NCBI GenBank assembly: GCA_016946835.1
Contig: JACVTC010000515.1
Span: 1 to 21,125 of the forward strand
DNA from: Neocallimastix lanati (nom. inval.)
Taxonomy: Eukaryota; Neocallimastigomycota; Neocallimastigomycetes; Neocallimastigales; Neocallimastigaceae
Reading direction: 5' to 3'
Length of the DNA: 21,125 nucleotides
Shown here: positions 300 through 21,059 of the stretch, one piece after another
How positions within the stretch are numbered: position 1 is the stretch's first letter
How the letters are laid out: every line of letters begins with the position of its first letter
Made by a program: the position numbers and the translations under genes
Notes under the pieces: model-generated
What the model was told of the DNA's origin: nothing
Databases searched by the model: none
What the model saw: only the letters and a program-made list of their open reading frames with translations

Positions 300-326
300 A
301 TTATATTATTTTCATTATTATTTATT

Positions 327-403
<77 letters not shown>

Positions 404-1479: not shown

Positions 1480-1742
1480 AATAATATTTTATTTTCTTCT
1501 ACATTCTTATTTTGTATATCTTCACCAGAATTTAATCTTGAAAGTGCATCTGCAATTACATTTCTCCTCCCCTCTTCATATAAAACTTTAACTTTTAAAA
1601 TACTGAATTCCGTAATCCATTTAATATGACGGCTAGAAGTAGGTTCTTTACTATTGAAAATATAAACTAAGGGTTTATGATCAGTGTACAAAATAGTTTC
1701 AAAATTATTACCTGTTAAAAATGGTCTAAATTCATAACACAA
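1428..1742 (-). pseudogene. E1 RNase H, C-terminal part
   Basis: The frame reads E-F-R-P-F-L-T-G, then Y-T-D-H-K-P-L (containing a catalytic-type Asp), then N-V-I-A-D-A-L-S-R-L, the typical end of Ty3/gypsy RNase H. It matches the E2 segment Y-T-D-H-K-P-L ... N-V-L-A-D-A-L-S-R. The domain degrades the RNA strand of the RNA/DNA hybrid during reverse transcription. The first residues join the upstream RNase H sequence only through a one-base frameshift at about 1742. The last 25 or so residues (after E-E-N-K) are off-frame: the Asn-rich continuation is in another frame from about 1479. Confidence 0.8.
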
Positions 1743-2190: not shown

Positions 2191-3226
2191 ATAATTCTAC
2201 TTCTTCTTTAAAAAAATGACATTTCTCTAAATTAATTTTTAATCCATTATTATGTAGAATTTTGAAAACCTTTTCAAGATCTTTAATATGCTGATCCATT
2301 GAGGGAGAATACACAACAAGATCATCGATATAGACAAAGACACAAACACCAATCAAGTCGAAGAATATTCGGTTCATCTCCCTTTGAAAAGTTGCGGGAG
2401 CATTACACAACCCAAAAGGCATAACTTGAAAATTAAAATTACCATAAATAGTAGTAAAACACGTAATATCTCTATCATCAGGATGCATAGGAATTTGATG
2501 GTATCCTGAAAATAAATCAATTGTTGAAAGAACTGCGGTGTTTCCTACATAATAAAGAATATCATCGATAATAGGAAGGGCATAGGCATCTTTCTTCGTA
2601 CAGTTATTTACTACTCTATAATCAACGCACATTCTTACTTGACCATTTTTTTTTAACACAAGAACAACTGGTGAAGACCAAGGAGAATTTGAAGGAACAA
2701 TTAATTTATTGTTAATGAGTTTAATTATTTCTTTTTTTAGAGCATCTGCTTGTACTTTAGAGAGTCTATATGCTCTCTGTTTAACAGGGTGAGTACCAGG
2801 AACTAAATTAATTCTATGAGGAAATAATTTAGAATTACCTAAATCGTCTGTTTTAACAGCTAAAATATCCGTGTATGATAAAAATAAAATTTTAATTGAA
2901 TCTCTAATAGAAGAAGGTACTTCAGATAATATGTCGTGTACAAGCGAAATTTTCTTATCATTTTGCAGAGATTTTAAATCAACAAAAGATGAATTATCAT
3001 CAGAAGTTATTAAAAGAATAGCGGGACAAATTTTTGAATCATTATTAAGAAATAACACATTATTATCAATAGAAAATAAATCATTATTATTAAGAACTTC
3101 ATCATTAGATAATATTAAATTATCAAAATCACTAATATTTATATTAGAAGTATCATTACACAAAAATTTGACACGCACAATAATTGATAATACCATCACA
3201 ACGCGTAACATAATTTTCAGAATCAT
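2141..3226 (-). pseudogene. E1 reverse transcriptase
   Basis: Open frame holding the Ty3/gypsy RT: a P-V-K-Q-R-A-Y-R-L-S lead-in, W-S-S-P-V-V-L-V-L-K-K, R-M-C-V-D-Y-R, L-S-T-I-D-L-F-S-G-Y-H-Q-I (first catalytic Asp), M-P-F-G-L-C-N-A-P-A-T-F-Q and the active site F-V-Y-I-D-D. All three catalytic aspartates are present, so the domain itself looks sound. The N-terminal 30 or so residues of this ORF overlap another frame (3156-3347), and the last dozen residues after L-L-G-H are off-frame because of a base change at about 2183. RT copies element RNA to DNA in cytoplasmic particles. It would have been made as part of a Gag-Pol fusion. Confidence 0.9.
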
Positions 3227-3347
3227 TTTTATTAATATTTAAATCATTAACATTAGAAAAATTTACATTATACATTAAATTAGAAAGTTCAATAAAATCA
3301 CCATTATCATTTTTACGTAATAAAGTATCATCAACTAAATCTAGCAC
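3156..3347 (-). pseudogene. E1 protease-RT linker fragment
   Basis: A 63-codon open frame that continues the Gag-protease frame after a -1 step at about 3350-3360: the zero frame ends ...K-K-T-D-L-C-stop, whereas the -1 frame reads on through F-V-L-D-L-V-D-D-T-L-L. It ends at 3156 and RT resumes in a further frame. This is the low-complexity linker between protease and RT. The first step could be a programmed -1 shift, but the local AAGAAAAC is not a canonical slippery heptamer. Confidence 0.55.
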
Positions 3348-5167
3348 AAATCTGTTTTCTTAAGCGTGTCAATACCAATTAACACGTCGAAAATATCATC
3401 TTTTTCTATTTTTCTGAAATAGTCTTTGAAAGTGTAGCCGCCTATTTCAATTTCTAATTCGTATACATCCGAAGAAATATAATTATTAGAATAAGCCTGG
3501 AATATTCTTTCCGAAATAGTTCCAACGGCCGTTTTATTTATTTTATACTTCTCGAATGCAGCAGCAGTAATTAAATTAACACTTGCACAAGAATCTAAGA
3601 ATATTTCTGCGTAGGATCCTTCAATAGTACCATTTACTTTTATAACTTTATAGTCGCTTAACAATGATAAAGCATTTATTAAAAATTCTTTACTGGTACT
3701 TTTAATTAATTTTTGTTCTTTGTTAAACCCGGTACGAAATTTAGGACATAAGTCCAATAAGTGTGCCAATTTAAGTTTGACTTCTATATTGGCAACATCT
3801 TTAACCAGGTCATTTATATCATAATTATCGACCAAATTGATCATTTTAATATGTTTCTCTAATTTTGACGTCTTAGTATTACCTCCATTTTCATTTTCGT
3901 TTGTAGTATTGGATATTATCTCTTTAATTCTATTTAATTTGTTAATTTTTTTTGCGTTTGAAATATTTGGTTGGTTTATATATGATATATCCAAATGTTC
4001 CAATTTTTCTGTGTTATTATTACTATCATTATTAGTATTAATATTATCATTAATGTTATTATTATTATTATTGCTACTATTAATATTACTGTTATAGAAA
4101 TTATTAAAATTATTATTGTTATTATAATTACTGTTATAATTATTATTACCATATAGAGTATTATAATTATTATTATTATTATTATTAATATTATAATTAT
4201 TTCCATTATTTCCGTTATTAAACATTCTATTTCCATTATTATTATAATTATTTTCATTATAAAATCCAGAATTAAATTTTCCGAAGGTCATTAATTGATT
4301 CTGATCCTGACTATAATTAAGAGATTTATTTTTATTTCTTAAATTTCTTTTGTTACATTCTCTTGCTTTGTGACCTGGTTCGCCACAGAGGTAGCAAGTA
4401 AAATTTCTAAATTGATTATTATTATTGTTGTTATTATTATTCCTTGAATTAAATCTTTCTTGACGATATCGACCAGTAGAAAACAGATCAGCGTTGCCCA
4501 CATAATACGCATTTTGTATAGAATTATCTAAATCCCTATTTCCTTCGGTCAATCCTCTATATAATGGATGTTCTAATAAAGAATTTTGACAATTAGAATT
4601 ATTTTGGAAGACCATAGAAGTGTTGAGAAATTCATTATTTCCTATGGTCCTTTTTTCGGCTTTCTCGGCTCTTACAGCCACTTCAAAAGCATCCGACAAG
4701 GTATCACATTCGGCTAAGAGAATTTGAGAATGAACATATATTCTTGATTTTATTGAATTTAAATAATCATCGACTGATATAATCTTCTGATAATCTCTAT
4801 CTAATCGATGATACAAGGTTAAATAACGGTAGTTAAAATTCTTTATATTTTCATTTGGTTTTATTTTCAGATTTTTTAAAACTGAGCATTTATCAGCTGG
4901 TTTTATATCCATATACTTTTCAATAGCTGATTGCACTTCTTTATAGTTTGGATACCTTGTGATATTATTCCGAGTGGTTACTAATGATTTCAAAACGTTC
5001 CTCAAGTCAGCCTCCACGGCTATTTTTAGCCATACAAAAATTCTAGATGAATCTTGGATGTCATGCATTTCCATGACACCCTTAAAATCTTCTATCCATG
5101 TGTCTATGTCTTTACCATAGTCACATAGATATGGTAGATCACGTTTTACTTTGGAAGCGTCAACCAT
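3341..5167 (-). CDS. E1 Gag with fused aspartic protease
   Basis: A 608-residue intact frame. Residues 1-190 are a Ty3-like Gag core (W-I-E-D-F near 24, the N-E-N-I-K-N-F-N-Y-R-Y segment near 105-115), homologous to the E2 Gag. A zinc knuckle C-x2-C-x4-H-x4-C lies at 258-271, preceded and followed by poly-Asn (about 243-251 and 305-390). A conserved L-L-D-L-C-P-K-F-R segment (about 470-478) precedes the protease, with F-L-D-S-C-A-S at 523-529 and D-V-L-I-G-I-D near 594-600. The catalytic triplet is D-S-C instead of D-T/S-G. Gag packages the RNA; the protease matures the particle. In E2 the protease is instead in the pol frame. The ATG at 5167 is the first in frame, about 200 bp from the LTR. 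Confidence 0.88.
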   Translation of the reverse strand: MVDASKVKRDLPYLCDYGKDIDTWIEDFKGVMEMHDIQDSSRIFVWLKIAVEADLRNVLKSLVTTRNNITRYPNYKEVQSAIEKYMDIKPADKCSVLKNLKIKPNENIKNFNYRYLTLYHRLDRDYQKIISVDDYLNSIKSRIYVHSQILLAECDTLSDAFEVAVRAEKAEKRTIGNNEFLNTSMVFQNNSNCQNSLLEHPLYRGLTEGNRDLDNSIQNAYYVGNADLFSTGRYRQERFNSRNNNNNNNNNQFRNFTCYLCGEPGHKARECNKRNLRNKNKSLNYSQDQNQLMTFGKFNSGFYNENNYNNNGNRMFNNGNNGNNYNINNNNNNNYNTLYGNNNYNSNYNNNNNFNNFYNSNINSSNNNNNNINDNINTNNDSNNNTEKLEHLDISYINQPNISNAKKINKLNRIKEIISNTTNENENGGNTKTSKLEKHIKMINLVDNYDINDLVKDVANIEVKLKLAHLLDLCPKFRTGFNKEQKLIKSTSKEFLINALSLLSDYKVIKVNGTIEGSYAEIFLDSCASVNLITAAAFEKYKINKTAVGTISERIFQAYSNNYISSDVYELEIEIGGYTFKDYFRKIEKDDIFDVLIGIDTLKKTDLC

Positions 5168-5375
5168 TATTAATTAACTACTAAAAAAGGAAAAAAAAAT
5201 GAAACAAAACTTATATTTAATACGTAATTTATTTTCTTATTTAATTCGACTTATCTCTAATATTATTTATTTATTTTTACTATTATATATATATATATTT
5301 TAATAAAAAAAAAATAATTTTTTTTTTTTTTATAATATTATTATTATTTTCATATAATTTAATAGTGCAGCGCCC
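5168..5375 (-). other. E1 5' leader
   Basis: Non-coding, very AT-rich leader between PBS and gag, with homopolymer A and T runs near 5306-5332. Its end next to the PBS (5364-5375, minus strand GGGCGCTGCACT) is the only GC-rich part and can pair with U5. Confidence 0.6.
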
Positions 5376-5448
5376 GGATTCTCCACCAAAAAATATGATA
5401 CGATATATTTTAAATATTCGTATTTACAATAGTTTTGGGCGCTACACT
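5364..5448 (-). other. E1 U5-leader stem flanking the PBS
   Basis: Minus-strand AGTGTAGCGCCC in U5 (5437-5448) and GGGCGCTGCACT directly after the PBS (5364-5375) can form 12 base pairs with one G-U. A TATA-like AT stretch (5462-5473) lies just upstream, so the U5 arm may be close to the RNA 5' end. E2 has an analogous stem with a different sequence. Confidence 0.7.
5376..5388 (-). promoter_or_regulatory. E1 primer-binding site
   Basis: Minus strand reads TGGTGGAGAATCC, seven bases inside the LTR end. TGG complements a tRNA CCA end. The first nine bases TGGTGGAGA are shared with E2 at the equivalent place. I cannot name the primer tRNA: its 3' end would have to be TCTCCACCA. Confidence 0.75.
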
Positions 5449-6035
5449 GGGGAATTGTACTAAATTATATATTCTAATAATAATATTAATTATTTTATTT
5501 AATTATTTAAAATTTTTATTTTAGGATATTTGTTTTGTAATATTTTATTTTTATTTTATTTTATTTTATTTTATTTTATTTTATTTTATTTTATTTTATT
5601 TTTATCATATTAATTAACTATTAATAATTATAATTTAATTATAATATTCTATAATTAATTACTTAAACAACTAATTTTATTAAAACTAATAACTAAACTA
5701 CTATCTTAACTAATTAAAACATTTTTCTTATATTAAATCAACTATTACTAATTAACATATATCAATAATTTTTTTTAACAAAAACATTTTTTTTTTTATA
5801 ATATTTTTTATATATTTTTTTTTATAATTATTATCTCTATATTAAATCATAATTGTTATATTTTATATAAACATTAATATAAAAGTTTATATTATAATAA
5901 TTAAATTTTATACTATAATAATATCATTTTTATATAATTAATTTTATAATAATATATATTTTACAAACTTTATATAATTAATATAATTTAATAATAATTT
6001 TAAAATATTATTATTTTTCTTTTCATCTTGTATCA
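5396..6035 (-). repeat. E1 5' LTR (640 bp)
   Basis: Bounded by TGATAC at 5396 and GTATCA at 6035, a 6-bp terminal inverted repeat with canonical TG...CA. The left end lies 7 bp from the PBS, as in E2 (6 bp). The right end is fixed because the sequence to its right (from AGAG) is repeated at 20570 while the sequence to its left is not. The partner LTR is outside the window, so the ends rest on these arguments. Confidence 0.75.
5541..5603. repeat. (ATTTT)n microsatellite in the E1 LTR
   Basis: About ten ATTTT units with occasional length changes, inside the LTR. Confidence 0.9.
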
Positions 6036-6039
6036 AGAG
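6036..6039. repeat. Probable target-site duplication of E1 (AGAG)
   Basis: AGAG directly follows the E1 right end. The partner copy would be left of the window. The same four bases flank E2 on both sides. Confidence 0.55.
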
Positions 6040-6050
6040 TTAGTAAAATT

Positions 6051-6121
6051 GTTGTTGTAGTCTGGAGGTAATACACCATGACAATGAAGCCGAACTTATT
6101 AGGTTCAACTCACACCCTTTC
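6051..6121 (+). other. tRNA-like sequence with A and B boxes inside the E3 LTR
   Basis: TAGTCTGGAGGTA (6058-6070) resembles a Pol III A box of the kind seen in tRNA-Glu genes, and GGTTCAACTC (6102-6111) resembles a B box, 44 bp apart start to start. The other LTR copy has the better boxes TAGTCTGGTGGTA and GGTTCGACTC. The T arm and acceptor do not fold, so it is not a working tRNA. It is more likely a degenerate tRNA or a tRNA-derived promoter module. Confidence 0.45.
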
Positions 6122-6333
6122 CCAATCTAAATTATTTTTAGTTAATTAATTAAATTATTGTAGAAAGTTCTAGAGTTTCTTTGGTTAATATTATATAACT
6201 AAATGAAACTAGAAAGTTCTATTTTAATAATTATTTTATCATTTTTCTATAAGATTCATTTTCTAGAAAGAAAACTTAATTTTTCGAACCTTCGTTAATC
6301 TTAACTTTTTCCGAAACTGTTTTTCCGAAAAAG

Positions 6334-6340
6334 TATAAAT
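6334..6340 (+). promoter_or_regulatory. TATA box of the E3 5' LTR
   Basis: TATAAAT, conserved in the other LTR copy (20858-20864), 43 bp upstream of the presumed RNA start at 6377. Confidence 0.65.
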
Positions 6341-6539
6341 AAGCGTGAATTTCTCAATAAAAAATAATTTTTCTTTGTGCTTTTATTAACTAGTTAAAAG
6401 TAATTCGAAATATTACAATAACTAATTAATAATAAAAAATAATAATAAATTTTATATTTTAATAAAAATATTAATAAAACAAATTTTTTAAGAAAACGAA
6501 TTACTTATTAGTGTAGACCTATTGGGTGTAAACCGTTAC

Positions 6540-6550
6540 AATAAAAGCAC
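6540..6550 (+). promoter_or_regulatory. E3 self-priming-type primer-binding site
   Basis: AATAAAAGCAC, at the LTR edge, is perfectly complementary over 11 bases to GTGCTTTTATT at 6377-6387 in the same LTR, downstream of its TATA box. This is the arrangement of Tf1/sushi-type chromoviruses, whose mRNA 5' end folds onto the PBS and primes reverse transcription in place of a tRNA. No TGG (tRNA CCA complement) is present here. Confidence 0.7.
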
Positions 6551-6593
6551 CCAAAGAAAAGAAGCCCAGTACCCCTGCACTAAGGACTAGCCA

Positions 6594-6730
6594 AGGAAAT
6601 CAAGGAAATCAAGGATATCTACCAACTCAAGAAATCAAGGAAATCAAGGAAATCTACCAACTCAAGAAATCAAGGAAATCAAGGATATCTACCAACTCAA
6701 GAAATCAAGGAAATCTACCGAATCAAGAAG
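6594..6730 (+). repeat. Minisatellite in the E3 leader (35-bp unit, about 4 copies)
   Basis: Units start AAATCAAGG, usually given twice, followed by a 17-bp tail ending CAACTCAAG. The last unit is shorter and diverged. It begins about 40 bp after the PBS. Confidence 0.9.
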
Positions 6731-7245
6731 ATTTATTATAAGGCGAATAAAATAAAATAAATTAAATTACAGATACTATTCTAAACAACATCTCGCATTA
6801 AATAGTACTCTACTCTCCGAATAAATATTTATTTTAATTATAATTAATTTTAAATTTCTTACGTTATATATAAAGGCTTGCCTGGCTCCCAAAGCGACGA
6901 TAGTTGAGCATCGTTACCATAATACTTTGTCGTTCAGATTCTGTTGATAACTGGGGAAGATAATTTGTTGTACTTTTTCATGCTAACAAAGGTTAGATAC
7001 AAACAAAAATACAATTACATTACTTCCTTCTACCATTAATTGGTACTAACAATCGACTTAATCTGCGTTTATCGATAAAGAGCTAAAGAGACTTACCACG
7101 CAAGGCTTTAACAAATTATATATTTCCTGGCTCAATACTATATGATTTGGTTTATAACAATTCAATAAGAAATAAAGATTAATCAAATAAAATAAATATT
7201 TAATTACTCCTATATCTTCCAAAATAATTATATATTACTTTATCA

Positions 7246-7247
<2 letters not shown>

Positions 7248-7288
<41 letters not shown>
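7248..7288 (+). repeat. A(41) homopolymer
   Basis: Uninterrupted run of about 41 A in the E3 leader, in the sense orientation. Confidence 0.95.
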
Positions 7289-7293
<5 letters not shown>

Positions 7294-7709
7294 ATCACGG
7301 AATATATCAAAAAAATCAACTCTGAAAATATCCAATCTCAAATCACTCTCAAAATCAATCTGAAATTTTATATCAACTTAATGCAATAAATTTTAAATCT
7401 CAATAATCTTTTCTAAATTATTTCCAGCTCTCTATAACTATTAAATTACTATAATAATATATATACAAATCTACTATACCTAATTTAGTATATTATATAA
7501 ATTTAAAATTTCAATACCAAACCTTATTTAACTCTAAATAATTCCAGTGGGATCAATTATTACTATTTATATATTCAAATCCTCCTTAATCAAAAGTATA
7601 TTATAATTCAATTCCTCTCTATTATACTGAAAAAATCGTTCTTAAATATATCTTATTCCAACTTATTCAATAATCAACTATAAAAATAACAGTGAAACTT
7701 ATATTCAAA

Positions 7710-9860
7710 ATGGAAGAAAACAATTTTGCCAACGCAACCTATAAGGATGGTTTTGCCGGAGATAGACGCTACCTTAAGGGATTCTTAGCTAAAATGAATT
7801 TAATCTTCATGATTCACCCTGATCGATTCAATAATGATGAAACAAAAGTAATCTACGTTATTTCTAGGTTATATGGTAATGCTATGAATTGGGCAGCATC
7901 ACTTATGGAGAATCAGGACCCTTGCTTGTTAAATTACGAAGCCTTCGTTGAAAGAATGAAATCTGTATATGGGAGTTATGACTCAACATTCATTGCAAAT
8001 CAGAAACTCAGAACTATAAGACAAAAACGGTTAGGCGACATTAGAAGCTATATACTCGAATTCAACTCTTATGCCGACGAGTCATCTTGGAACGAAGAAG
8101 CGAAAATGGACGCATTTCTTGTTGGTTTAAATGATCAAATCGCTACAAGAATTCTGGAAATGTTCCCTGGTCCAAGATCTCTTACTGCTATGCAAACTAT
8201 AGCTTCCAGAATAGATGGCCGTCTATCAGCCCATAGGCAATTTACAAATAATCAAAATCGATCAAACAATAACCTTAATAACAACAATTCTAATAAGAAA
8301 AGATGGAATTTTTATAAGAAAGGTTCGAATTCTAAACATTATGGACCCCTATCCGACGAAGAGAAAGAAAGAAGAAAAAGAGAAAACCTCTGTTTATATT
8401 GTGGATCCTCAAATCATACTCTAGGAAATTGTTCACTCAAAAATAAGAAAAAATCACCCTCAAGCACTTCTCATATTACTAATCCTGAACCAAAGGCCAA
8501 AGAAAGAACAAGAATCTCAGATCAACAAAATTTGAGTCTTCCTATATTTGAATTCACTCTCAATGTTTTAAAATCATCAGTCAAAACTAAGATTCTTCTA
8601 GATTCAGGTTCTCAACTTAATCTTATGGATGTCTACTTTGCCAATGAAAATAACATTCCTTATTCATCCGAAACCATTCATCCTGAAGTAGGAGGAATTG
8701 GTGGTACTCAGAAAATTCTCGGGGAAACTTTGCCAATTTCGATCCGCTATAAAAATCACAATTGTAAAACTAAGTTTTATATCGTCGATTTACCTTCTTA
8801 TTGTGCTCTTCTTGGCGCTGAATGGCTCTCTACTCATAATCCAACAATAGATTTCTCTTCTAAAACACTTCATTTTAATTCAAAATATTGTATTAATAAT
8901 TGTCTCGTTATTCCAAATACTTATACAACCTTCATTCCTTCATGCAATTTAATAAACGAAATTCCAAAAAATTCCGATAATTCGGACAGCCAAAAAATTG
9001 AAGAAATTAACAATTCAGAAGAAAAAATATCTAATGAAATAATTAATAATACTAAGAACCAACACAAGGAACCCAACGAAGACAATAAAAATGTTATCTA
9101 TTTTTTACCAACTAAATTATCCTCATTTATGGATGTTTTTAGTGAAATCGCTGCGAACATGCTACACCCTCATCGACAATATGATTGTGAAATTAATTTG
9201 AAACCAAACACTAATTTATATTACGGCCCAATATATCCATTTCATCACCAAATAAATGGTTTAACGGAGAGGGTGAACTCCGTTATCGAACAATACTTAA
9301 GATGCTATACAAATTTCAAAGGATCTAATTGGAATGACTTCCTTTACTTAGCAGAATTTAGCTATAATAACACCATTCAAGAATCCACTAATCATTCACC
9401 TTTCTTCGCTAATTATGGATTCAATCCCAGACATTCTCCCGAAGTCCCCACAAATGTTGAAGTACCTAGAGCAGAAGAACTTGTTAAAAACCTTGCAGAA
9501 TTAACCAAGGAATTAAAAGAAAATATTAAAATAGCAATTGAAAAACAAGAGAAATATGCCAATAAGCATCGTATGGAACCACCTGAATTCAAGAAAAATG
9601 ACAAAGTTTGGATCAATAGTTCTCTAATTATAAAGAATGGTAACAAAAAGCTTAAACCAAGAAAATTAGGACCTTTTAAAATCCTAAGCAAAATATCTCC
9701 TGTTTCGTATAAACTTGACTTGCCAAAAAATCTTAGGATTCATCCAATCATGCATGTCTCTGACCTTGAACCGTACTTTGAAGATAAGTTTGGAAGAAAC
9801 CAAGAACCACCACCAATTATCATTAACAACGAAGAAGAGTGGAAGTTGAACAAATATTAG
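7710..9860 (+). CDS. E3 Gag-protease joined in frame to the integrase end (RT deleted)
   Basis: The open frame begins with GTG at 7692, but the first ATG is at 7710 (residue 7, M-E-E-N-N), taken as start. In residues counted from 7692: Gag core 17-180 (W-A-A-S-L-M near 67); Asn-rich stretch 186-201; zinc knuckle C-x2-C-x4-H-x4-C at 234-247; protease L-L-D-S-G-S at 302-307 with L-L-G-A-E-W-L near 373-379; the RT start (H-P-H-R-Q-Y-D-C-E to Y-G-P-I-Y-P) at 492-516. At 516/517 the sequence jumps to [13 protein letters not shown], the end of the integrase core, and continues to the integrase C-terminal G-P-F-K-I-L and [13 protein letters not shown] catalytic motifs, RNase H, the integrase zinc domain and the first two Asp are missing, yet the frame stays open. 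Gag and protease could still work. Mobility would need enzymes in trans. Confidence 0.9.
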
Positions 9861-9994
9861 ACAAACGAACTCATTATGGGAAAATCCAATACTTGATAAA
9901 ATGGAAAGGATATCCGCTTTCAGAAGCTTCTTGGGAACCTGAGGAAAATCTTAATTGCCCCAAACTCTTGAAAAAATTCAATAAAAATAATTAA
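9839..9994 (+). pseudogene. E3 chromodomain, shifted -1 from the main frame
   Basis: Just before the stop at 9858-9860 the -1 frame carries [19 protein letters not shown] and A-S-W-E-P-E-E-N-L, then ends at TAA 9992-9994. This is the classic chromodomain at the integrase C terminus of chromoviruses, which binds methylated histone H3 and steers insertion to heterochromatin. One missing G in a short G run at about 9841 (TGGAAG instead of TGGGAAG) would explain the break. A true mutation or a base-calling error is equally possible. Confidence 0.88.
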
Positions 9995-10145
9995 AATAAC
10001 TTAAACTAGAAAATGAATCTCTATTAAACTTTAAATTTTATAGTATATTATATAATTATATGATTAAATTATATTCTTAAATTATTAATATTAAACTTAT
10101 TATTATTGTTAAAACCTAATTTTTCCTTTATATTATTTTATAATT

Positions 10146-10189
<44 letters not shown>

Positions 10190-10389
10190 ATAATAACTAT
10201 AAACTTTATTAATATCATGTAACAAAAATAATTATTAAATATGTTATTTCATGTAATTAATTATTAATATCATGTATTATTATTTTTATTATTTCATACT
10301 ATTAAGCAAAAAAGAAATTCACACTTAAATATTTTATTTATTCATTGTAGTCTAGTTTAACTTTAAGATTCGTCTGGTATCCGAATCCT
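9995..10389 (+). other. E3 3' untranslated region
   Basis: AT-rich, no coding. It holds a 35-base A run (10152-10186). Near the end (10345-10387) is another TTGTAGTCTAG A-box-like start, followed by a perfect 6-bp hairpin GATTCG...CGAATC with a 9-base loop. Confidence 0.5.
10152..10186 (+). repeat. A(35) homopolymer
   Basis: Uninterrupted A run in the E3 3' untranslated region. Confidence 0.95.
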
Positions 10390-10398
10390 GGAGGAGGA
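10390..10398 (+). promoter_or_regulatory. Likely E3 polypurine tract
   Basis: GGAGGAGGA followed by CCA and TGTTG. It is a purine run of the kind that primes plus-strand DNA immediately before a 3' LTR, about 400 bp after the chromodomain. TGT...ACA would then bound the LTR. Confidence 0.5.
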
Positions 10399-10566
10399 CC
10401 ATGTTGTAAAATAAAATACTTATCAAGTCTAGGTTTGTGGCTATTCTAAACTAACTTTACTACACTAATAACACTATATCTTAAACCTCTATTATTTAAT
10501 TAATTATTTTCTTTTTTAATTTCTTTTATTTATTTATTTTATTTATTAACTAATTTTCAACAACCA

Positions 10567-10616
10567 CTTAACTGGGTAACGCAGGGTCCTTTCCGGAGTT
10601 CCCACTAGCAGTTAAG
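10567..10616. other. Hairpin with structured loop
   Basis: Perfect 8-bp arms CTTAACTG (10567-10574) and CAGTTAAG (10609-10616) enclose 34 bases of much higher GC than the surroundings, with further short complementary pieces (GGG/CCC, TCC/GGA). Confidence 0.5.
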
Positions 10617-11384
10617 ATTTTACAAACTATAATATAATTGATTTATAAGAAAGTAACTATTCTAATAATAGTTACGAAACTAATAATAAAATTTAAATTT
10701 TCCTATTCTATACGATTTTCCAACTATCGTTCAATAGTTGAAAAATTAACTCTTTTTATACTTTTTCAAAATAAAGTTTTAAATCAAAATAAATTTTAAT
10801 AAATTACATAAACATATTATTTTATATTATCAATTACATTATTTAATAAATTACATGAAATGTTATGAATTATTTTAATATAAATCCTATTTAAAACTAT
10901 CTAATTTTTTCTAAAATTTTCTATGAAGAAAATTTAGAGTTTAATTCATTAATTATATGATTAAATATATTCTATCCATATATTTAATTTAAATTTTGCC
11001 AAGTTGTGAAAACCAATTTACTAAACCACAACTTGCTATTTTTATTTTTAGAATTTCTATAATTTAAAAGACAAGTAAACAAAACGGCAAGTTTTTGTAA
11101 ACAAACGGAAAAGGCAATATTCCTTTAATTATTTTAATTTAACTAATTAATGACTAATTATTTTTTAATTTATGAAGTTTCGTGATTCAACTGAGTAATT
11201 GTTACGTAAATTCTCCAAATAATTTAGTCATACATTTTTGAGAAAATTATTTAAATTAATAATTTGGAATACATTTAAATTTATATTAAAAATTTGGAAA
11301 ACATTTTTATCCACAATAATTTACATTACATTACATTTAAATACGTATTCAAATTATTAAATATTTTACACATGTAACGAATCG

Positions 11385-11467
11385 TAGAGTGGTAGACTCG
11401 GGGTTGACACTTAGATATTTAAAATCAAGCAGGGGGGGACGGGTATTACCCTGCTTTGATTTTAAAT
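11385..11467 (+). other. D-arm-like A box followed by a long hairpin
   Basis: TAGAGTGGTAGACTC (11385-11399) has a 4-bp stem GAGT/ACTC around GGTAG, like a tRNA D arm. It is followed by an inverted repeat: 11417-11434 pairs with 11449-11467 over about 18 bp with one bulged A, closing a 14-base G-rich loop. I see no good B box. Confidence 0.45.
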
Positions 11468-12405
11468 AAAAAAATTATTTCTTTATTAAAAGTTATTTAT
11501 ATTTTTTTTTATTAATATAAAACTTTTTATTTAAAGTACACACATTTAATTTTTAAGAAATTGTTACAATATTTATATTTTTTTATAAATTTAAAGTATA
11601 ATTAATTGTTTATAATTTAAGTAATTTTATAGAATTATTGAATTAATTTTATATCAATAATTCATTTTTGTTTTAATTTTTATAAATATAATAATATAAT
11701 ATTCAAATATAATTTAATTAAAAATAATTATAAAATAAATATATAGAAAATAGTTTTTACTATTTTCTTTGATATTTTTAAGTTAAATAAATTGTTTTTA
11801 AAGATTAATATAATAAATTTAATAATCTTTAATTATTTTAAATAATACTTGTAATTATTTTCAAAATAAAATAAAATTTTTATAATATTTAATTAATAAA
11901 TTTGATAATATTTAAATAATAATTTTTATAATAAGTAAAAATTTTTAATAATAATTTTTAATAATAAATTTAATTAATAATCTTAATAATTTTATAATAA
12001 TATTTAATAGTTATAATAAATAAATTTTTATAATAATATTTAATAATTTTAATAATTTTATAATATTAATAATTTATAATAATTTTTAGAATAATATTTA
12101 ATTAATAATTTTAATAATTTTATAATAATTTTTATAATAATATTTAATTAATATTTTTAATAATTTAGTATCTTAAAAGTATAATTTTAATATTTACAAT
12201 TGTATTTTAATATATACATATATTTAATAATATAACAATAAAGTGATTAATTAAAATTTATTTACATTATTTACAAATTAAAATTAATTTATATCAAAAT
12301 AAATTAAATTTACAATGAGGTTTAGGTTATGAAGAATATAGGAAAGTACAATTTAGTAAAGAATTATTAATAATAAAATAAAGGTTATTAATTCATTCTT
12401 TACCA

Positions 12406-12409
12406 AGAG
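12406..12409. repeat. E2 target-site duplication, left copy (AGAG)
   Basis: AGAG before TG of the left LTR equals AGAG after CA of the right LTR (20570-20573). Confidence 0.8.
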
Positions 12410-12707
12410 TGTTAAGGTTTTAGAGAATTAAATAAAAATAAAGTAAGGAAACACAAATTTTATTTATTTATTTATTATTTTTATTTATAAATTTATTTGA
12501 TTTTATTTGATGATATTTAAAAATTAGTAGCAAAATTTACAACTATTTATACTTTTTTTCAAGGCATAAAAGTTGTTCTTGCCACTAAATTACATTTTAT
12601 TTATTTTTTTTTTTAAAAACTATTAAATTTAAATTGATTTTTATAATTAATTATATAAAATTTAATTATAACAATATAAATAAAATACATTTATAATATT
12701 AATAAAA

Positions 12708-12804
<97 letters not shown>

Positions 12805-13300
12805 TTATTTATTTAAAAATATCTAAAATATTACTAATAAGAATTTATTTAATTGGCTATAATTTTTATTACAATCTGTTAAAATATTCAAATAAAAATA
12901 AAAATACTATTCTAATATAAAGGTTTTTAATAAAATAAAATATTTTTCAATATAAAATAAAACATTTCGATATAAAATTTTATAATAAAAAGTTAAAATA
13001 TAATATATAAATTTTTAATTATCAATATATAAAAATATTATTAATATAAATTTTCATTATTAATATAAAAAAAATAAGATTTATTATTAATATTGCTAAT
13101 ATAAGTTTTAAATATATAAAAATATTACTATTAATATAAGATTTAATATAAAAATATAAAGTTTAATATAATTTTTGATTTAATTTTTGATCTTTGGATT
13201 TAAAAATTTATTAAAGTACAAAAATAATAATGTACACATAATGTATTAGAAATAAATCGTAGATTTAATTAAGAATGCATTATTTAGTACATTCTTATCA
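12410..13300 (-). repeat. E2 3' LTR (left copy, 891 bp)
   Basis: TGTTAAGG...TTATCA on the plus strand, matching 19685-20569. It contains a T run of 93 (12710-12802) and TATAAATA on the minus strand (12544-12551). Confidence 0.95.
12710..12802 (-). repeat. T(93) run (sense A tract) in the E2 3' LTR
   Basis: Uninterrupted; poly(A) in the element's own direction. The other LTR has 83. Confidence 0.95.
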
Positions 13301-13318
13301 AGATGCCCCGACGAAGAC

Positions 13319-14026
13319 TCAAGCTTCTCTGTAAGCGGAGTTAAACTTTACTAAATTTTTAAAGTGAACATTCCTATCGAGTTGCTTTCCAGTCTTCTGA
13401 TCGATTAGGGTTGCCGTGTTGAATTGAATTTTTAAAATTTTAAATGGTCCATTGTAATATGGTTCTAGCTTAGTGCGGCTAAAGTTTCTAACAAGAACAA
13501 GATCACCAGCCTTTAATTCTTTTCCTTTTTTCATACTTATTTGTTCTTCTCGTCTTGTTGCCCAATACTTGTTAGCATTCTTCACATTTTCGCATGCTTC
13601 TCTAGTCCATTGATAATGACGAACAAATTTTTCCATTAAGATTTCATCATATGATTTACCTGCATTTTCAATTGTTCTTATGGCTATATCATAAGGCTGT
13701 TGGTCTTCTCTTCCATATACTAATTCAAAACTAGAATGTCCAGTAGCTGTATTTTTGGTAGTTCGAAGTGCCCATAAAGCAGAAGGTAAAACTTCATCCC
13801 AATCTTGATTTTTCCTTCCTAATAAACGGAGTAATTTTCCAATTTCTTTATTTCGATTTTCAGTAAGGCCATTTGATTCAGGGTGGTAAGTAGCTACAAA
13901 TTTAACATATACATCATAAAGATCAAGAAAGATTTTAGTCATATCAGAAGTGAATTGGACTCCATTATCAGTAGTAATAACTTGAGGTACACCATGTCTT
14001 GCAAAAACGTTTATTAAAAATTTAAT
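13319..14026 (-). pseudogene. E2 integrase core and C-terminal part (after one frameshift)
   Basis: Open from about 14026: R-H-G-V-P, T-T-D-N-G (second catalytic Asp), H-P-E-S-N-G-L-T-E-N-R-N (catalytic Glu region), W-A-L-R-T-T, F-E-L-V-Y-G-R, then the C-terminal segment L-K-A-G-D-L-V-L-V and Y-N-G-P-F-K-I-L. It ends A-Y-R-E-A-stop 18 bp before the LTR. No chromodomain follows, unlike E3. The upstream pol frame ends at 14022-14024 in the middle of the core, so one base has been lost or gained at about 14022-14030. With that single exception the D-D-E set is complete (the first Asp is in the pol frame). Integrase inserts the cDNA into the genome. Confidence 0.88.
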
Positions 14027-17000
14027 TATATGTTATGTTTTCAGTGGGTTCGGCTTCAACCCATTTGGTAAAGTAATCAACAGTTACTATAATATATTGA
14101 TTATTATTTCTTGTTTTTGGTAACGGTCCTATAATATCTAATCCTAAATGCACAAAGGGACCCTCCACTTTAGTTGGATGGTTTTCGGTTGGTTCTGGAT
14201 ATGGTTGAGGACGATTTAATTGGCATTTTTCACAATTACTAACAATTCTTTTGATATCTTTAATCATATGATTCCAATAAAAGTTTTTCTTAAGTCTTTG
14301 ATATGTTTTGTAATATCCTTCGTGGCCAATATTATGAGCTTCTAAAATTAATTTAAACCTTTCATTTTCGTCCGTTATTAATTTTCTATAATTTCCATTG
14401 TCGATAAAGTAATCTTCACCATCAATAACAGTAAACTTTTCATTAATAAATTCCTTTATAACCTTAGATAATAATTCTTCATTATTTCCATTAGTAATTT
14501 TTGTTAATAATATCTTTCTCTCTTCCTTACTTTTCATTCTTGAAAGAGCATCAGCTAACACATTCTTTTTGCCTGATTCATATTTTATATTAATTCCAAG
14601 CATACTAGCGGTTAGACACCATCTTGTTTGCCTTGCATTCAAAGGTTCTTTATTCTTAAATAAACCAACTAATGGTTTATGATCTGTGTAAATAGTTGTA
14701 GGTAATGGATTTCCTTCAATATAAGATTTAAATTTAGTCATACAGTAAAATAAAGCTGTTCCTTCCAAATCTGTGATACCATAATTCTTTTCAGTTTTCT
14801 TCAAACTTCTACTTATAAAGTGTATTGGATGCTCCTTACCGGTTTCTTCTTCTTTTTGTAAAAGAACTCCACCAATTCCATTATACGAAGCATCAGTTCT
14901 AATGATAAAAGGTTTGTCAAATGACGGAAATTTTAGAATAGGTGCATTGATTAATTTTTCTTTTAGGAGTTCAAAGCTTTCTTGTTGTTCTTTATTCCAT
15001 TCATATTTAGTATTCTTTTTCAATAATTTACATAAAGGTGAGGTAATTTGAGCATATTTAGGGATAAAGTCACGATAATACCCTATTGCTCCTAGAAATG
15101 ATCTTAATTCATGAATTGATGAAGGGGCTTCCCACTTCTTAATAGCTGTTATTTTACTTTCCATGGGACTTAATCCTTTAGTAGTAAGTTTGTGACCTAA
15201 TACATCAACTTCAGTTTGAAGAAAATGGCACTTTTCAATATTAATTTTTAACTTGTTTTCTTTAAATACTTCTAATACTTGTTTAATATGAATTAAATGT
15301 TCTTCGATACTTTTTGAATAGATCAAAACATCATCAATAAATACATAAACAAATTCACCAATAAAAGGGAATAAAATTTTATTCATTTCTCTTTGGAAGG
15401 TTGAGGGAGCTCCAGTAAGTCCAAAAGGCATAACCTTAAATTGATAATTTCCAAACTTAGTAGTGAAAGTGGTTACTTCAACGCTTTCTTCATCCATTAA
15501 GATTTGGTGAAAACCAGAAAATAAATCAAGAGTTGTAAATATTTTAGATCCTCCGAGACTATCAAAAATTTCATCTATATATGGAACTGAATAAGAATCT
15601 TTTTCTGTCATATCATTGACTTTTCGGTAGTCAATACACAAGCGCCACTTTCCATTGTGTTTTAGAATGAGTACTACTGGAGATGACCATTCTGAACAGG
15701 ATGGTTCTATCAATCCTTTCTTAATAAGCTTTGTAAGTTCTTCTTTTAAGATATCTGATTTTAATTTAGTTAACCTATAACTTCTTAATTTTACTGGCTT
15801 TGCATTTGCTTTCAAACGGATCTTATGTGGTGAAAGTTTAGAAGGAGTTAGTTCTTCTGTTGAAGTGGCAACTATGTCAATCATTTCTTTGAGAATTTTA
15901 ATAATTTGTTCTTTATAATCTTTATTTAAGGTACTTAAAAATTCATCACTCTCAATAAATTCCATTGGAGTTAATTCCTTTATAATTTCCTTTTCATTAT
16001 TCGTTTCTTTAACTTTTCTAATAGTGCAAATTATACTTTCTTCATCATAATATTGATTATTTATTTTAGCTATTTCTTCGTATTCACTTTCTGACAAAAG
16101 TTTACATAAACTGTTTAAGGTCGGATGAATAAATAAACAATGATCGATTTGAGTTTTAAAGTTTATTAACATATCATAAAATGAGTCTTCTTTCTCAATA
16201 ATTCTAAAGTCCGCATTAAATTCATAATTATTAATTTTTACTGGTAATTGAACAATAATTCCTTCCGAGTATTCTTCATCTTGTGTTGCTAGTTGGATTC
16301 TTCCACGACTTTTTCCAACTGTTTCATATTCACCAGGTAATTTATCAAAATACTGCTTAGTAACGATGCTTAGGTTACTACAAGAATCAATTAAAAGTTT
16401 TCCTAGTACTCCGTCAACACTTGCATCAACCATTGCTAAGTCTTCTTCGGCTACTTCATTACTTTTACTTATGTAGCTATGATCATAGTTATTCACTAAT
16501 AAAGTTCGTGCTATTACATTGTCTACAGTTCCAATTATTTTAGATTTTTCTAACTTTAAACCTTGAGTTAATTGTGAACGAATTTTCGGACATGCATTCA
16601 AGAGTTGACCTATCGTAATACTGGATTTAAGATTATTTAAATCATCCATAATATTGTAAGGTTCTTTATTATTCATCATTTTGATATTCCTTTTTACTAA
16701 CTGAGTATTTTCATTATTAGTTTCTTTAGTTTTTGTTGAAATTAATTTTTCCAAAGTATTAGTTTTATTTTGTTGATTATCTTTATTCATTTCTATATCT
16801 TCTATTTCATTATCGATTACAAGTATATCTTCAGATTCAACTTTTTTCTTTCCTTTTGATGAATAATTGTTGTTTTCTTCTTTACTTTCTCTTACTCTTG
16901 TTATATTTCTTAATTCCTTTTCTTTTTGTTTTTCTTTGTTAATATTTGGTTGAGTTAAAATTGAAGGAAGTATTTGATTTTTATAAACTTTATTTGGTTT

Positions 17001-17320
17001 ATTATGTAGCTCATTTTCTTTCTTCTTTCTTAAAGCAGGAGTTGCGAAAGGACGTGGATTATCTTTTAAACTTTTATGTACTTTCTTGGAATTATTTTCT
17101 TCCTTTTCGCTGTTATTATCATTCATTTTTCTTTTTATAGCATTTATAATGATATTATCCTCACTTTCAGTTGTGTCACTAAAATCAGATTCTTCAGATT
17201 CTTTATTAAAGGAATTATTATCAATTGGGGTATTCTTGGTAAAAGTATTATTTTGTAAATTATTTAATGAAGCTATTGTTTTGTCATTGGGAGTGCTTCT
17301 GCTCCCATTTAGAAGTTTAA
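14022..17320 (-). CDS. E2 Pol: protease, RT, RNase H, integrase N-terminal part
   Basis: Residues counted from the ATG at 17126, a 1034-codon frame. A charged Lys/Glu/Asn-rich linker spans 1-150; I-G-Q-L-L-N-A-C-P-K-I-R 172-183; protease L-I-D-S-C-S 245-250 (D-S-C in place of D-S-G); RT about 440-645 with L-D-L-F-S-G-F-H-Q-I 533-542 and active site F-I-D-D 596-599; RNase H about 740-862 (R-T-D-A-S, Y-T-D-H-K-P-L, A-D-A-L-S); integrase zinc domain H931, H935, C965, C968; first core Asp 997. The frame is open upstream of that ATG to about 17346, overlapping the end of gag, and is -1 to gag, so translation most likely enters by frameshifting at 17315-17321 rather than at the ATG. It stops at 14022 because of a single indel. 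Confidence 0.92.
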
Positions 17321-17321
17321 A
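17269..17321 (-). promoter_or_regulatory. E2 gag-pol -1 frameshift signal: UUUAAAC plus pseudoknot
   Basis: Minus strand TTTAAAC (17315-17321) is phased T-TTA-AAC in the gag frame, one codon before the gag stop (17309-17311). After a 7-base spacer, stem 1 is TGGGAG/CTCCCA (17302-17307 with 17288-17293). Its 8-base loop contains GAAGC (17295-17299), which can pair with GCTTC at 17269-17273 to form an H-type pseudoknot. Heptamer, spacing and knot match well-studied -1 frameshift elements. Confidence 0.8.
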
Positions 17322-18214
17322 GACTTTTTGGAATATATTTCTTTTTTATTTTTTTCCATAATCTTATTTAATTGAGGGCAATAGTATGAGTAATGACCTT
17401 CTTCCTTACAGAAGAAGCAAGTTTTAACAGATAAATTTCTCATTTTCTGGGTTGATTCTTCTATAATATCTTGAGGTTTCAGTTTATTATTTGTTTGACT
17501 TGTTTGGAAAGTTTCGTTTCTTCTTTTAGGATAAAGTCTTGAAGTAGTACTGTTTTGATTATTTTGATTATGCTGGGAATTATTAACATTATAGGTATTA
17601 ATATTATTGTTCCTTACAGAAAGTCTATCTACTTTCTCGGCAATTTTGAAAGCTTTCTCCATACTTATATCATCTTTAAGGGATAATTTCTTCCAGGCTT
17701 CATAATTATTTTGAATAGAATCAATATAATCTAGTACACCAATGCGCTTTCTTCTCTTTTTATCAAGTTTAGTGTACAAAGTTCTATATCTTACATTAAA
17801 GTCTTTAATCTTTTCGTTTCTTTTAATTCGCATTGCACGAAGTTCTTTAAGAAGTAAATTTTGGTCTTCTTTAATACCGTAAAAATTTTCAAGACTTGAA
17901 ATAATTTTTTCAAGAGAAGGAAATTTATCATCATCAACATTTTCTTCTTCATCATCTTCTTCTTCATCTGATGAATCATCACTTTCATCATCACTATCTT
18001 CTCCCAAATCTTCAATAACGCGTTGTACTTCACCAGAGCTGGTAAGTAAACAAGCATTAAATATTGTTTCCGGATCTGTGATACCTTGTATCTTGATCCA
18101 AAGTTTTAATTCAGTAGCCCAGGACTTTATATCTAAATTGTCCTTGCTAAGCTTCACTATGTCTCGTAATTCTTTCTTTAATTCTTTAAAACTTAAAGTA
18201 CTTTTAGTAGACAT
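17309..18214 (-). CDS. E2 Gag
   Basis: The frame opens with an ATG at 18286, but M-S-T-K-S-T at 18214 is preferred because the distance to the conserved Trp (K-S-W-A-T-E-L) then resembles E1 Gag. Residues counted from 18214: Gag core 1-205, with a strongly acidic insert at about 72-95 (Asp/Glu/Ser only for most of it); the core R-N-E-K-I-K-D-F-N-V-R-Y-R-T-L-Y is shared with E1; Asn/Gln-rich stretch at about 205-225; zinc knuckle C-x2-C-x4-H-x4-C (C-F-F-C-K-E-E-G-H, Y-Y-C) near the C terminus. It ends at 17309, just after the slippery site. Gag forms the particle and packages RNA. Confidence 0.88.
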   Translation of the reverse strand: MSTKSTLSFKELKKELRDIVKLSKDNLDIKSWATELKLWIKIQGITDPETIFNACLLTSSGEVQRVIEDLGEDSDDESDDSSDEEEDDEEENVDDDKFPSLEKIISSLENFYGIKEDQNLLLKELRAMRIKRNEKIKDFNVRYRTLYTKLDKKRRKRIGVLDYIDSIQNNYEAWKKLSLKDDISMEKAFKIAEKVDRLSVRNNNINTYNVNNSQHNQNNQNSTTSRLYPKRRNETFQTSQTNNKLKPQDIIEESTQKMRNLSVKTCFFCKEEGHYSYYCPQLNKIMEKNKKEIYSKKSLNF

Positions 18215-19652
18215 TTCGTTTTTAGTTAATAATTTTTTATTGTAAATTAACGAGGTTATTAAATACGAATAAATTTGAAAGTCCAACTTTAAAAATATAA
18301 TTTAACAAGTAATTTAATATCGAATCAAATTTTAAAACAATATATCTTAGTAATTTTTGAAAATAATAATTTTATTTGCTTTCTTTAGTAAGTATAAGCT
18401 CGAAATCCTTATCGACAACTTAGTAGAAATTATAAAGCACGAGGTTCTTTTCGACTACTTTTTTTAGAATAATTTTAAGTTCGAAATCTTTATCGACAAT
18501 TTAATAGAATAATTTTAAGTTCGAAATCTTTATCGACAATTCAATGAAATAATTTTAAGTTCGAAATCTTTATCGACAACTTAATAGAATAATTTTAAGT
18601 TCGAAATCTTTATCGACAACTTAATAGAATATTTTTCAAGCTCGAAATCTTTATTGACCACTTGAATTTTGTAATTTAGTATATTTGTAGTAATAAATTT
18701 AGAAGCAAAGTTTTATTTATTATTTTCACCTTTCAAAAATTTTTCTTTTTAAACGATAAATATTGTATTGTTATAGCTAATAAAATTATTAATTAATTAT
18801 AATTATTAAACACAAAAAATAATCTTTATTGTCGTACAATCTGATAGTACACACTGTCTGACGTGCAGCTTACCTAATGGTGTCATGCCACGCGTGTGCC
18901 ACGATTACTATATTCAATATAAAATATAGCAGTTCAGAGCCCACTAGCCCAATTACTATGTAGGATAAACTTAATCCGATAATCTATGTACGGAATAAAA
19001 AAAATTTTAAAAGTATTCAATAATATTTTTATTAACTAATAAAAATTAACTAAAAACACAATATTTTCAAAGTAAATTAAGATTCTATTACAGGAATTAT
19101 ATAACAAATAAAGTACCAGTAATAAAAAAAAATAAAAAAAATTTAAATGGCGAAGTTAGCCAAAGTCTGATACTTTATATAATAAAGTGCCTTATAACTA
19201 GCACAAAGAAAAGTAAAAAAAATTATATAAAAAAAACAATCTTACGCCTTCGGTGACGTAAGCTCCTTATTCGCCAGTGCTTGGAAAGTACCCGCACCTT
19301 CGTGTGTTGAAACGTTGAAGGTTGAACTATTATTACCGGGTCGGTAACCAAATACCTTCGTCTACTTTCCAATTAATCTCCAAATTAACTACTATTCAAT
19401 AACCTACTATGAATAGAGTTAATTTGTTGCTATCTGAGAATACACTGTGTATGAGCTCTATCCGCTCCTTGTTATAATTTTACAAAATTTGTTTTTTTAG
19501 AATCTTAATTTTACTTATTTAAAAAAAATTTTTTTTATATATATATATCAAACAAGCGCCATGGGTTAATCAAAGGATTAACGACTTACTTGTTTATCAA
19601 TATAAAATAAAAAAAAAATTAAAAAAAAATCTATGTTATTTACTATTATTTC
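18215..19652 (-). other. E2 5' leader
   Basis: About 1.45 kb without coding. It holds 40-bp tandem repeats (18391-18665), a GC-richer island at 18831-18930 including the palindrome CACGCGTG (18889-18896), and a second island at 19230-19460 with small hairpins: CTTACG/CGTAAG around a TTCG-type loop (19241-19262) and TTACC/GGTAA (19333-19347). Packaging or dimerisation structures are plausible but unproven. Confidence 0.55.
18391..18665 (-). repeat. 40-bp tandem repeats in the E2 leader
   Basis: TCGAAATCTTTATCGACAA recurs with period 40 at 18481, 18521, 18561 and 18601, with diverged copies at each side (18399 and 18641). Confidence 0.9.
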
Positions 19653-19709
19653 TATTTAATTCCCCGATATCTCCACCATATAAATGTTAAGGTTTTAGAG
19701 AATTAAATA
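19653..19709 (-). other. E2 U5-leader stem flanking the PBS
   Basis: Minus-strand U5 TATTTAATTCTC (19698-19709) can pair with GGGAATTAAATA (19653-19664), one base beyond the PBS: 12 bp with one G-U. It has the same length and position as in E1 but a different sequence. Confidence 0.65.
19666..19678 (-). promoter_or_regulatory. E2 primer-binding site
   Basis: Minus strand TGGTGGAGATATC, six bases inside the LTR. The first nine bases are identical to the E1 PBS. Confidence 0.78.
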
Positions 19710-19818
19710 AAAATAAAGTAAGGAAACACAAATTTTATTTATTTATTTATTATTTTTATTTATAAATTTATTTGATTTTATTTGATGATATTTAAAAATT
19801 AGTAGCAAAATTTACAAC

Positions 19819-19826
19819 TATTTATA
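19819..19826 (-). promoter_or_regulatory. TATA box of the E2 promoter LTR
   Basis: TATAAATA on the minus strand, about 135 bp from the U5 end. It is conserved in the other LTR. Confidence 0.5.
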
Positions 19827-19983
19827 CTTTTTTTCAAGGCATAAAAGTTGTTCTTGCCACTAAATTACATTTTATTTATTTTTTTTTTTTAAAAACTATT
19901 AAATTTAAATTGATTTTTATAATTAATTATATAAAATTTAATTATAACAATATAAATAAAATACATTTATAATATTAATAAAA

Positions 19984-19985
<2 letters not shown>

Positions 19986-20068
<83 letters not shown>
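19986..20068 (-). repeat. T(83) run (sense A tract) in the E2 5' LTR
   Basis: Uninterrupted T run, ten bases shorter than in the other LTR. Confidence 0.95.
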
Positions 20069-20070
<2 letters not shown>

Positions 20071-20569
20071 TTATTTATTTATTTAAAAATATCTAAAATA
20101 TTACTAATAAGAATTTATTTAATTGGCTATAATTTTTATTACAATCTGTTAAAATATTCAAATAAAAATAAAAATACTATTCTAATATAAAGGTTTTTAA
20201 TAAAATAAAATATTTTTCAATATAAAATAAAACATTTCGATATAAAATTTTATAATAAAAAGTTAAAATATAATATATAAATTTTTAATTATCAATATAT
20301 AAAAATATTATTAATATAAATTTTCATTATTAATTATAAAAAAAATAAGATTTATTATTAATATTGCTAATATAAGTTTTAAATATATAAAAATATTACT
20401 ATTAATATAAGATTTAATATAAAATATAAAGTTTAATATAATTTTTGATTTAATTTTTGATCTTTGGATTTAAAAATTTATTAAGTACAAAAATAATAAT
20501 GTACACATAATGTATTAGAAATAAATCGTAGATTTAATTAAGAATGCATTATTTAGTACATTCTTATCA

Positions 20570-20573
20570 AGAG
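20570..20573. repeat. E2 target-site duplication, right copy (AGAG)
   Basis: Matches 12406-12409. Confidence 0.8.
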
Positions 20574-20584
20574 TTAGTAAAATT

Positions 20585-20652
20585 GTTGTTGTAGTCTGGT
20601 GGTAATACACATGACAATGAAGCCGAACTTCTAGGTTCGACTCACACCTTTC
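20585..20652 (+). other. tRNA-like A/B-box sequence, second copy
   Basis: A box TAGTCTGGTGGTA (20592-20604) and B box GGTTCGACTC (20634-20643), 42 bp apart. This copy is closer to tRNA consensus than the one at 6051. The D arm half-pairs (GTCT/ACAC); the acceptor and T stems do not. E2 ends 18 bp before the A box. Confidence 0.5.
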
Positions 20653-21059
20653 CCAATCTAAATTATTTTTAGTTAATTAATTAAATTATTGTAGAAAGTT
20701 CTAGAGTTTCTTTGGTTAATATTATATAACTAAATGAAACTAGAAATTCTATTTTAATAATTATTTTATCATTTTTCTAAAGATTCATTTTCTAGAAAGA
20801 AAACTTAATTTTTCGAACTTTCGTTAATCTTAACTTTTAAACTGTTTTTCCGAAAAGTATAAATAAGCGTGAATTCTCAATAAAAAATAATTTTCTTTGT
20901 GCTTTTATTAACTAGTTAAAAAGTAATTCGAAATATTACAATAACTAATTAATAATAAAAATAATAATAAATTTTATATTAATAAAAATATTAATAAAAC
21001 AAATTTTTTAAGAAAACGAATTACTTATTAGGTAGACCTATTGGGTGTAAACCGTTACA

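Follow-up and report, generated by a model that had tools for sequence, protein, structure and literature searches.

Targeting of transfer RNA (tRNA) genes is held to allow retrotransposons to multiply harmlessly, within a limit set by the number of tRNA genes. According to the parts of the cited sources on which we draw here and below, Ty3 integrates via TFIIIB, 1-4 bp before the start site of the tRNA, and leaves 5-bp duplications (PMC5911963, PMC8632968), and targeting of tRNA genes by gypsy elements is known in yeasts and in Dictyostelium (PMC5911963, PMC5006619, PMC4600332). Helenus elements (TRIMp3; Kojima 2024) carry tRNA-like long terminal repeats (LTRs), and the processivity of RNA polymerase III (Pol III) is held to limit their length (PMC10886601). 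Here we analysed a window of 21,125 bp of Neocallimastix lanati, the entire contig JACVTC010000515.1 (C463 in our numbering), in which two Ty3-like elements, E1 and E2, lie in the two LTRs of a third retrotransposon, E3, each shortly upstream of a tRNA-like module with an A box and a B box. The genome searched comprised 199 Mb in 762 contigs, and searches with reversed patterns served as control for the genome-wide pattern counts. The shared insertion point was confirmed as real and general in this genome, and we consider it likely that it reflects Ty3-like, TFIIIB-guided integration using LTR-borne Pol III-type promoters as landing pads.

The initial annotation had E1 and E2 ending, in the same orientation, at one base of the E3 LTRs, and the alignments reproduced this. 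E1 (1..6035) ends at 6035 (..GTATCA) and E2 (12410..20569) at 20569 (..TTATCA), both on the minus strand and both followed by AGAGTTAG, at 6036 and 20570, respectively. To the right of the junction the plus-strand parts of the E3 5' LTR (6036..6540, ending in CCGTTACA, with intact copies elsewhere) and of the E3 3' LTR (20570..21059) are identical at 485 of the 489 bases aligned (18 gap columns), while to the left a forced alignment scored 0.746, which is within the range of shuffled sequences (mean 0.693, maximum 0.785) and so indicates no homology there. The A boxes follow shortly after the junction (6058..6071 and 20592..20605, plus strand), starting 22 bp past it in both copies, and the B boxes (6102..6111 and, reading GGTTCGACTC, 20634..20643, plus strand) start 66 bp and 64 bp after the E1 and E2 junctions. 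E2 has AGAG on both sides, as described before. The 3' LTR has been struck more often than was noted at first, since E5, E4 and E2 all lie inside it. E4 is a solo LTR (TGGTAGAC..TTTACCA, 11390..12405, strand not assigned) flanked by AGAG at 11386-11389 and 12406-12409; it entered the 3' LTR at one base with E2, the same base at which E1 entered the 5' LTR. The left piece of the 3' LTR as far as the insertion point is AACGAATCGTAGAG (11376..11389, plus strand), and 12309-12405, to the left of E2, was rejected as a candidate for this left part, being the end of the E4 LTR.

As the window is a whole contig, the left end of E1 lies beyond it. The E1-E3 junction recurs, however, in contigs C436, C39, C564 and C278, the last matching a 375-base query almost completely and the other three at 100%, and its presence in five contigs means that the region is duplicated or the assembly unmerged, these copies being duplicated segments or unmerged haplotypes. 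In C436 and C39 E1 is preceded by ..CTTACACAGAG, that is, by AGAG after another LTR end (..CTTACA), which confirms the E1 duplication, so that AGAG is carried by each of E1, E2 and E4. AGAG and the rest of the E3 5' LTR had been expected to the left of E1, and their lack had been named as grounds for abandoning the interpretation; AGAG is present there and the E3 LTR start is not, because a further LTR is stacked at that place. A junction found in five contigs also lends something to the view that such junctions are products of LTR-LTR recombination or of misassembly and not of integration. This origin is highly improbable, given that target duplications accompany E2 at all 17 true far ends (16 with exactly 4 bp, the remaining one reading 5 bp in a run of A) and occur at E4 and E1 as well, and that many of the loci are internal to contigs hundreds of kb or more in length. 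The far side of E2 was read for 19 copies, two of which (L181, L190) proved not to be true far ends.

Intact E3 LTRs start with TGTAACGAATC(G/C)TA(G/A)AGTTAG or, in a longer reading, TGTAACGAATC(G/C)TA(G/A)AGTTAGTAAAATTG, which places the target at about LTR position 12-16. Allowing up to 3 mismatches, the E3 LTR head gave 68 matches in the genome (reversed control 0), and the intact E3 LTR start gave 28, of which 24 are among the 68 heads. Interruption of E3 LTRs near this base, surmised from two copies, was found in 44 of the 68 heads, more than coincidence would give, the other 24 being intact. Fifty-seven heads were fetched (56 of the 68, and L107), with 19 intact and 38 cut, and the remaining 12 of the 68 consist of the two in the window, five that are cut (in C564, C436, C39 and two in C278) and five that are intact. 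Five of the 44 cut heads represent the single E1-E3 event of the window, and when this event is counted once, 40 of 64 heads are cut. The elements cutting E3 heads, assigned by eye from their end sequences, belong to at least 12 LTR families, the end being doubtful in L150 and L154. ARAGORN found no tRNA gene in the flanks (about 300 bases, other than the E3 inside) of seven intact E3 LTRs, and so E3 itself does not seem to be a seeker of tRNA genes.

The E2 end occurs in 733 exact copies in the genome, internal ones included, with none for the reversed control. Searching for GGTTCRA 50-80 bp downstream of E2 ends identified 158 ends with a B box (reversed control 0), and the spacing and target classes rest on the 100 of these that were listed. 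E2 lies 63-67 bp before the B box at 92 of the 100 sites and 69-80 bp before it at the other eight, so the insertion-to-box distance is indeed fixed. The targets, classified by eye and not by script and including a few places that are copies of each other, were 37 tRNA genes, 61 tRNA-like modules and 2 unclear cases. The modules fall into seven families (a 29, c 14, E3 6, b 5, f 5, g 1 and h 1), six of which lie in recognisable LTRs. Since real tRNA genes are struck at the same spacing, the site is tied to Pol III promoters and not to E3 sequence, and the ratio of 61 modules to 37 tRNA genes among the listed targets supports the proposal that one element breeds targets for others. E2 in the opposite orientation is rare, with 14 places, a tRNA gene or module being present at 13, this orientation bias being an approximate figure. 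For E1, 30 loci, likewise classified by eye, comprised 15 internal ends, five copies of the one E3 event, two insertions at tRNA genes (L043, L046) and eight at an LTR-like start.

An outer-flank sample of E2, taken from 30 loci and 40 ends judged outer or single, left 55 usable flanks after E2-internal ones were dropped. A B box stands at 63-76 bp in 25 of these, 24 have an LTR-like start by the loose test of a TG after 3-5 bp, and six are of other kinds (L116, L129, L122, L137, L109 and L134). ARAGORN called tRNA genes in 10 E2 outer flanks; counted from the E2 end, nine of these genes start at base 14-17 and the tenth at base 5. In L116 the E2 end is followed by a module of family a whose B box is broken. 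In L122 and L137 E2 stands before copies of a repeat that is GC-rich, includes an A-box-like stretch and has no Rfam match, and Rfam returned nothing informative on the unexplained E2 flanks. At one further locus (L115, C3:694187-694387) two E2 5' ends face each other 4 bp (TTTA) apart.

Insertions into E3 LTRs fall on the same few bases time after time, as would be expected if the integrases read a short DNA sequence common to E3-lineage LTRs (AGAGTTAG or a neighbour of it), with no part for Pol III. The same families, though, strike numerous different tRNA genes whose upstream bases are unrelated, and the E2 duplications (CAAA, TTTT, TTAC, TCAC, AATA, TTGA and others) have no common motif, whereas the spacing to the B box is constant. 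Sequence-specific integration is rejected on these motif-free duplications, and we give the short-sequence explanation next to no credence. The far ends of E2 further showed, in neighbours read by eye, that insertions at these sites are stacked, with an LTR end directly before the E2 duplication in 13 of 17 copies, two bases off in three and absent in one (L187). The elements stacked behind E2 include E1 (L183), E4 (L184, L188) and E2 itself (L195). LTR ends next to the duplications imply that newcomers enter between the older element and the promoter, and that the site survives each strike.

The modules struck by E2 belong for the most part to a lineage of retrotransposons around E3, here called the pad lineage. 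In families a, b, c, e, f and h the sequence to the right of the module reads as that of an LTR, with a TATA-like box or other E3-like LTR features, g being doubtful, and nine module types align with tRNA genes at equal box distance, with the fixed columns mostly in or beside the boxes. Genome-wide, 365 intact LTR starts were found in which TGTAACG is followed by GGTTCGA after 55-85 bp (control 2); the 100 of these that were listed include E3, a, b and c, often paired several kb apart. In one family-b pair (L196) the 2,501-bp inside is one open frame with reverse transcriptase (RT), RNase H, integrase zinc finger and integrase core. The alternative that the modules are free short interspersed nuclear elements was rejected, by eye, on the TATA-like box and LTR features that six families (not g) share with E3, and is further countered by E3, a, b and c all starting with TGTAACGAA. 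One module scanned against viral contigs gave 0 matches.

Two lineages are thus involved. The family-b pol shares 33% identity with the E2 pol and 38% with the E1 RT, compared with 48% between E1 and E2, and from these values targeters and pad carriers are different lineages. The E2 pol contains RVT_1, RNase H and an integrase zinc finger in this order, with the integrase core in the next open reading frame (ORF); E2 and family b both have the RT, RNase H, integrase order of Ty3/gypsy elements, and their LTRs have TG..CA ends. In PDB the E2 pol is closest to Ty3 (7q5b, 1.6e-88), and its 120 listed relatives include five Orpsp1_1 records at 48-73% identity, a code that we take to denote the anaerobic fungus Orpinomyces.

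We propose that E1, E2, E4 and at least nine further LTR families may integrate in the fashion of Ty3, upstream of Pol III promoters and at a constant distance from them, and that the LTRs of a second, distinct Ty3/gypsy lineage (E3, families a, b, c and others) would bear a tRNA-like A/B-box promoter at their 5' edge. On such LTRs, as on tRNA genes, integration complexes of the first group would dock, and insertion would follow at about LTR position 12-16. Each strike would leave the promoter intact, and an undamaged promoter would allow the site to be reused and elements to pile up, the newest beside the promoter. The same insertion-to-box distance at tRNA genes and at LTR modules is what one would expect of a complex positioned by TFIIIC and TFIIIB, and it supports the earlier suggestion of Ty3-like targeting of a promoter module on another retrotransposon, with the Pol III factors as its presumed agents. 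The modules are predicted to bind TFIIIC and TFIIIB, the integrase may be tethered by TFIIIB, and the different targeting families would share one mechanism.

Several observations weigh against this proposal. The case for a role of Pol III is made from sequence. Scans of the window with ARAGORN and Rfam were unproductive, and neither program calls the modules as tRNAs, although Rfam also misses L015, which we take for a tRNA gene because it resembles L136, a sequence that Rfam does recognise. A Pfam scan gave no chromodomain in E2, where a divergent one could be missed, and the duplications of E2 are 4 bp long in place of the 5 bp of Ty3. Two of the 55 E2 flanks (L109, L134) have no explanation, and in L129 a tRNA-Met gene starts only at base 5 after the E2 end, compared with a usual gap of 13-16. 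Among the E3 LTRs, 24 of 68 heads are uncut, and the 38 fetched cut heads reduce to 31 distinct 40-base junctions, so that some cut copies duplicate one event. The chromodomain of Ty3 itself is divergent. Guidance could also come from Pol III itself (as in Ty1), from TFIIIC or from open chromatin rather than from TFIIIB, options that sequence is unable to separate and to which the missing Pfam match for an E2 chromodomain adds some weight. The narrow window resembles those of Ty3, Tj1 and DGLT-A and not the window of about 1 kb of Ty1, in the part of the source consulted (PMC5911963), and we hold guidance of this kind to be unlikely, TFIIIB remaining the preferred tether.

The remaining features of the window complete the anatomy of the nested elements. 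E1, with RVT_1, zf-CCHC and protease matches, is seen only in its capsid/protease and RT parts; on the minus strand it has a gag/protease ORF (3341-5173), an RT ORF (2141-3238) and an LTR (5396-6035) that ends with GTATCA at the target. Beside this LTR, CCCGGATTCTCCACCA (5365-5395) looks like the 3' end of a tRNA and so like a primer-binding site. In C330 and C388 E1 LTRs repeat at steps of about 8.94 kb (four and three listed places), as in tandem E1 arrays. The minus-strand LTRs of E2 (12410-13300 and 19685-20569) are identical at 882 of the 883 bases aligned (10 gap columns), and this near-identity indicates that E2 is young. E3 encodes, on the plus strand, an ORF (7674/7710..9860) for a Ty3-type capsid and the C-terminal part of an integrase, and, in another frame, a chromodomain (9839..9991; PF00385, E=2.2e-19). 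A domain search found no RT, no RNase H and not most of the integrase in E3, whose ORF stays open across the missing RT/integrase region, as in a non-autonomous derivative keeping its frame. The E3 polypurine tract (10390-10401) and the TGT that starts the 3' LTR (together 10390..10404, plus strand) form the same junction as in intact 3' LTRs. E5 is a solo LTR (TGTAAAAT..ATTTTACA, 10405..11370, strand not assigned) with CATGT on both sides. Its site, both in the E3 3' LTR and in an LTR of family b (L034), is CATGT|AACG, at LTR position 3-4, and E5 is perhaps another precise targeter, with 5-bp duplications, about 13 bp further upstream.

Taken together, the locus brings together Ty3-like targeting and tRNA-like LTRs, each of them known by itself, in a combination that we did not find in print in those parts of the sources consulted; in the open-licence literature, searched by title and start of abstract, neither tRNA-like LTRs as integration targets nor tRNA targeting in anaerobic fungi was found. 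The target here is itself mobile and multiplying, as the 365 intact module-bearing LTR starts attest. If the proposal is true, the LTRs of the pad lineage join a Pol III-type module with a Pol II-type TATA box in full-size Ty3/gypsy elements, insertions that would otherwise crowd tRNA genes are absorbed, and the targeters are freed from the limit of tRNA gene number, making of one genome a retrotransposon ecosystem. The chances seem to us evenly balanced that a dozen tRNA-targeting LTR families form a guild whose main pool of Pol III targets is the pad lineage, a pool that breeds sites, absorbs insertions and frees the targeters. As natural module variants, struck and unstruck, occur in one genome, the features of a Pol III promoter that an integrase needs become testable.

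Among known systems, Cassandra has, in the abstracts seen, LTRs with a Pol III promoter, as the pad lineage would have, but these are derived from 5S and the element is non-autonomous; no landing-site role for its LTRs was seen in those abstracts. Helenus is closer to the E3 lineage, with tRNA-like LTR sequence and conserved A and B boxes, and occurs also in fungi (Pucciniales), and the part of its description consulted (PMC10886601) does not mention such LTRs as integration targets. Helenus elements are, by the same account (PMC10886601), short and non-autonomous (311-1263 bp), whereas the LTR pairs of the E3 lineage lie several kb apart, E3 has a capsid and a chromodomain, family b has RT, RNase H and integrase, and the LTRs have a TATA-like box; given these coding regions, the E3 lineage is Helenus-like in its LTR but is not Helenus. 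Placing of tRNA-like LTR modules in coding elements is not expected by the TRIMp3 proposal with its length limit, as far as the consulted part of that source sets it out (PMC10886601). On the side of the targeters, Ty3 of S. cerevisiae, Tj1 and DGLT-A are, like E2, Ty3/gypsy elements whose insertions fall, to within a few bp, at one spot upstream of tRNA genes, as the consulted parts of the sources describe them, and the orientation of Tj1 is also constrained, as is that of E2 (PMC4600332). Unlike in the Ty3 system, many families here use the site and stack on it, and most of the listed E2 targets are modules in other retrotransposons.

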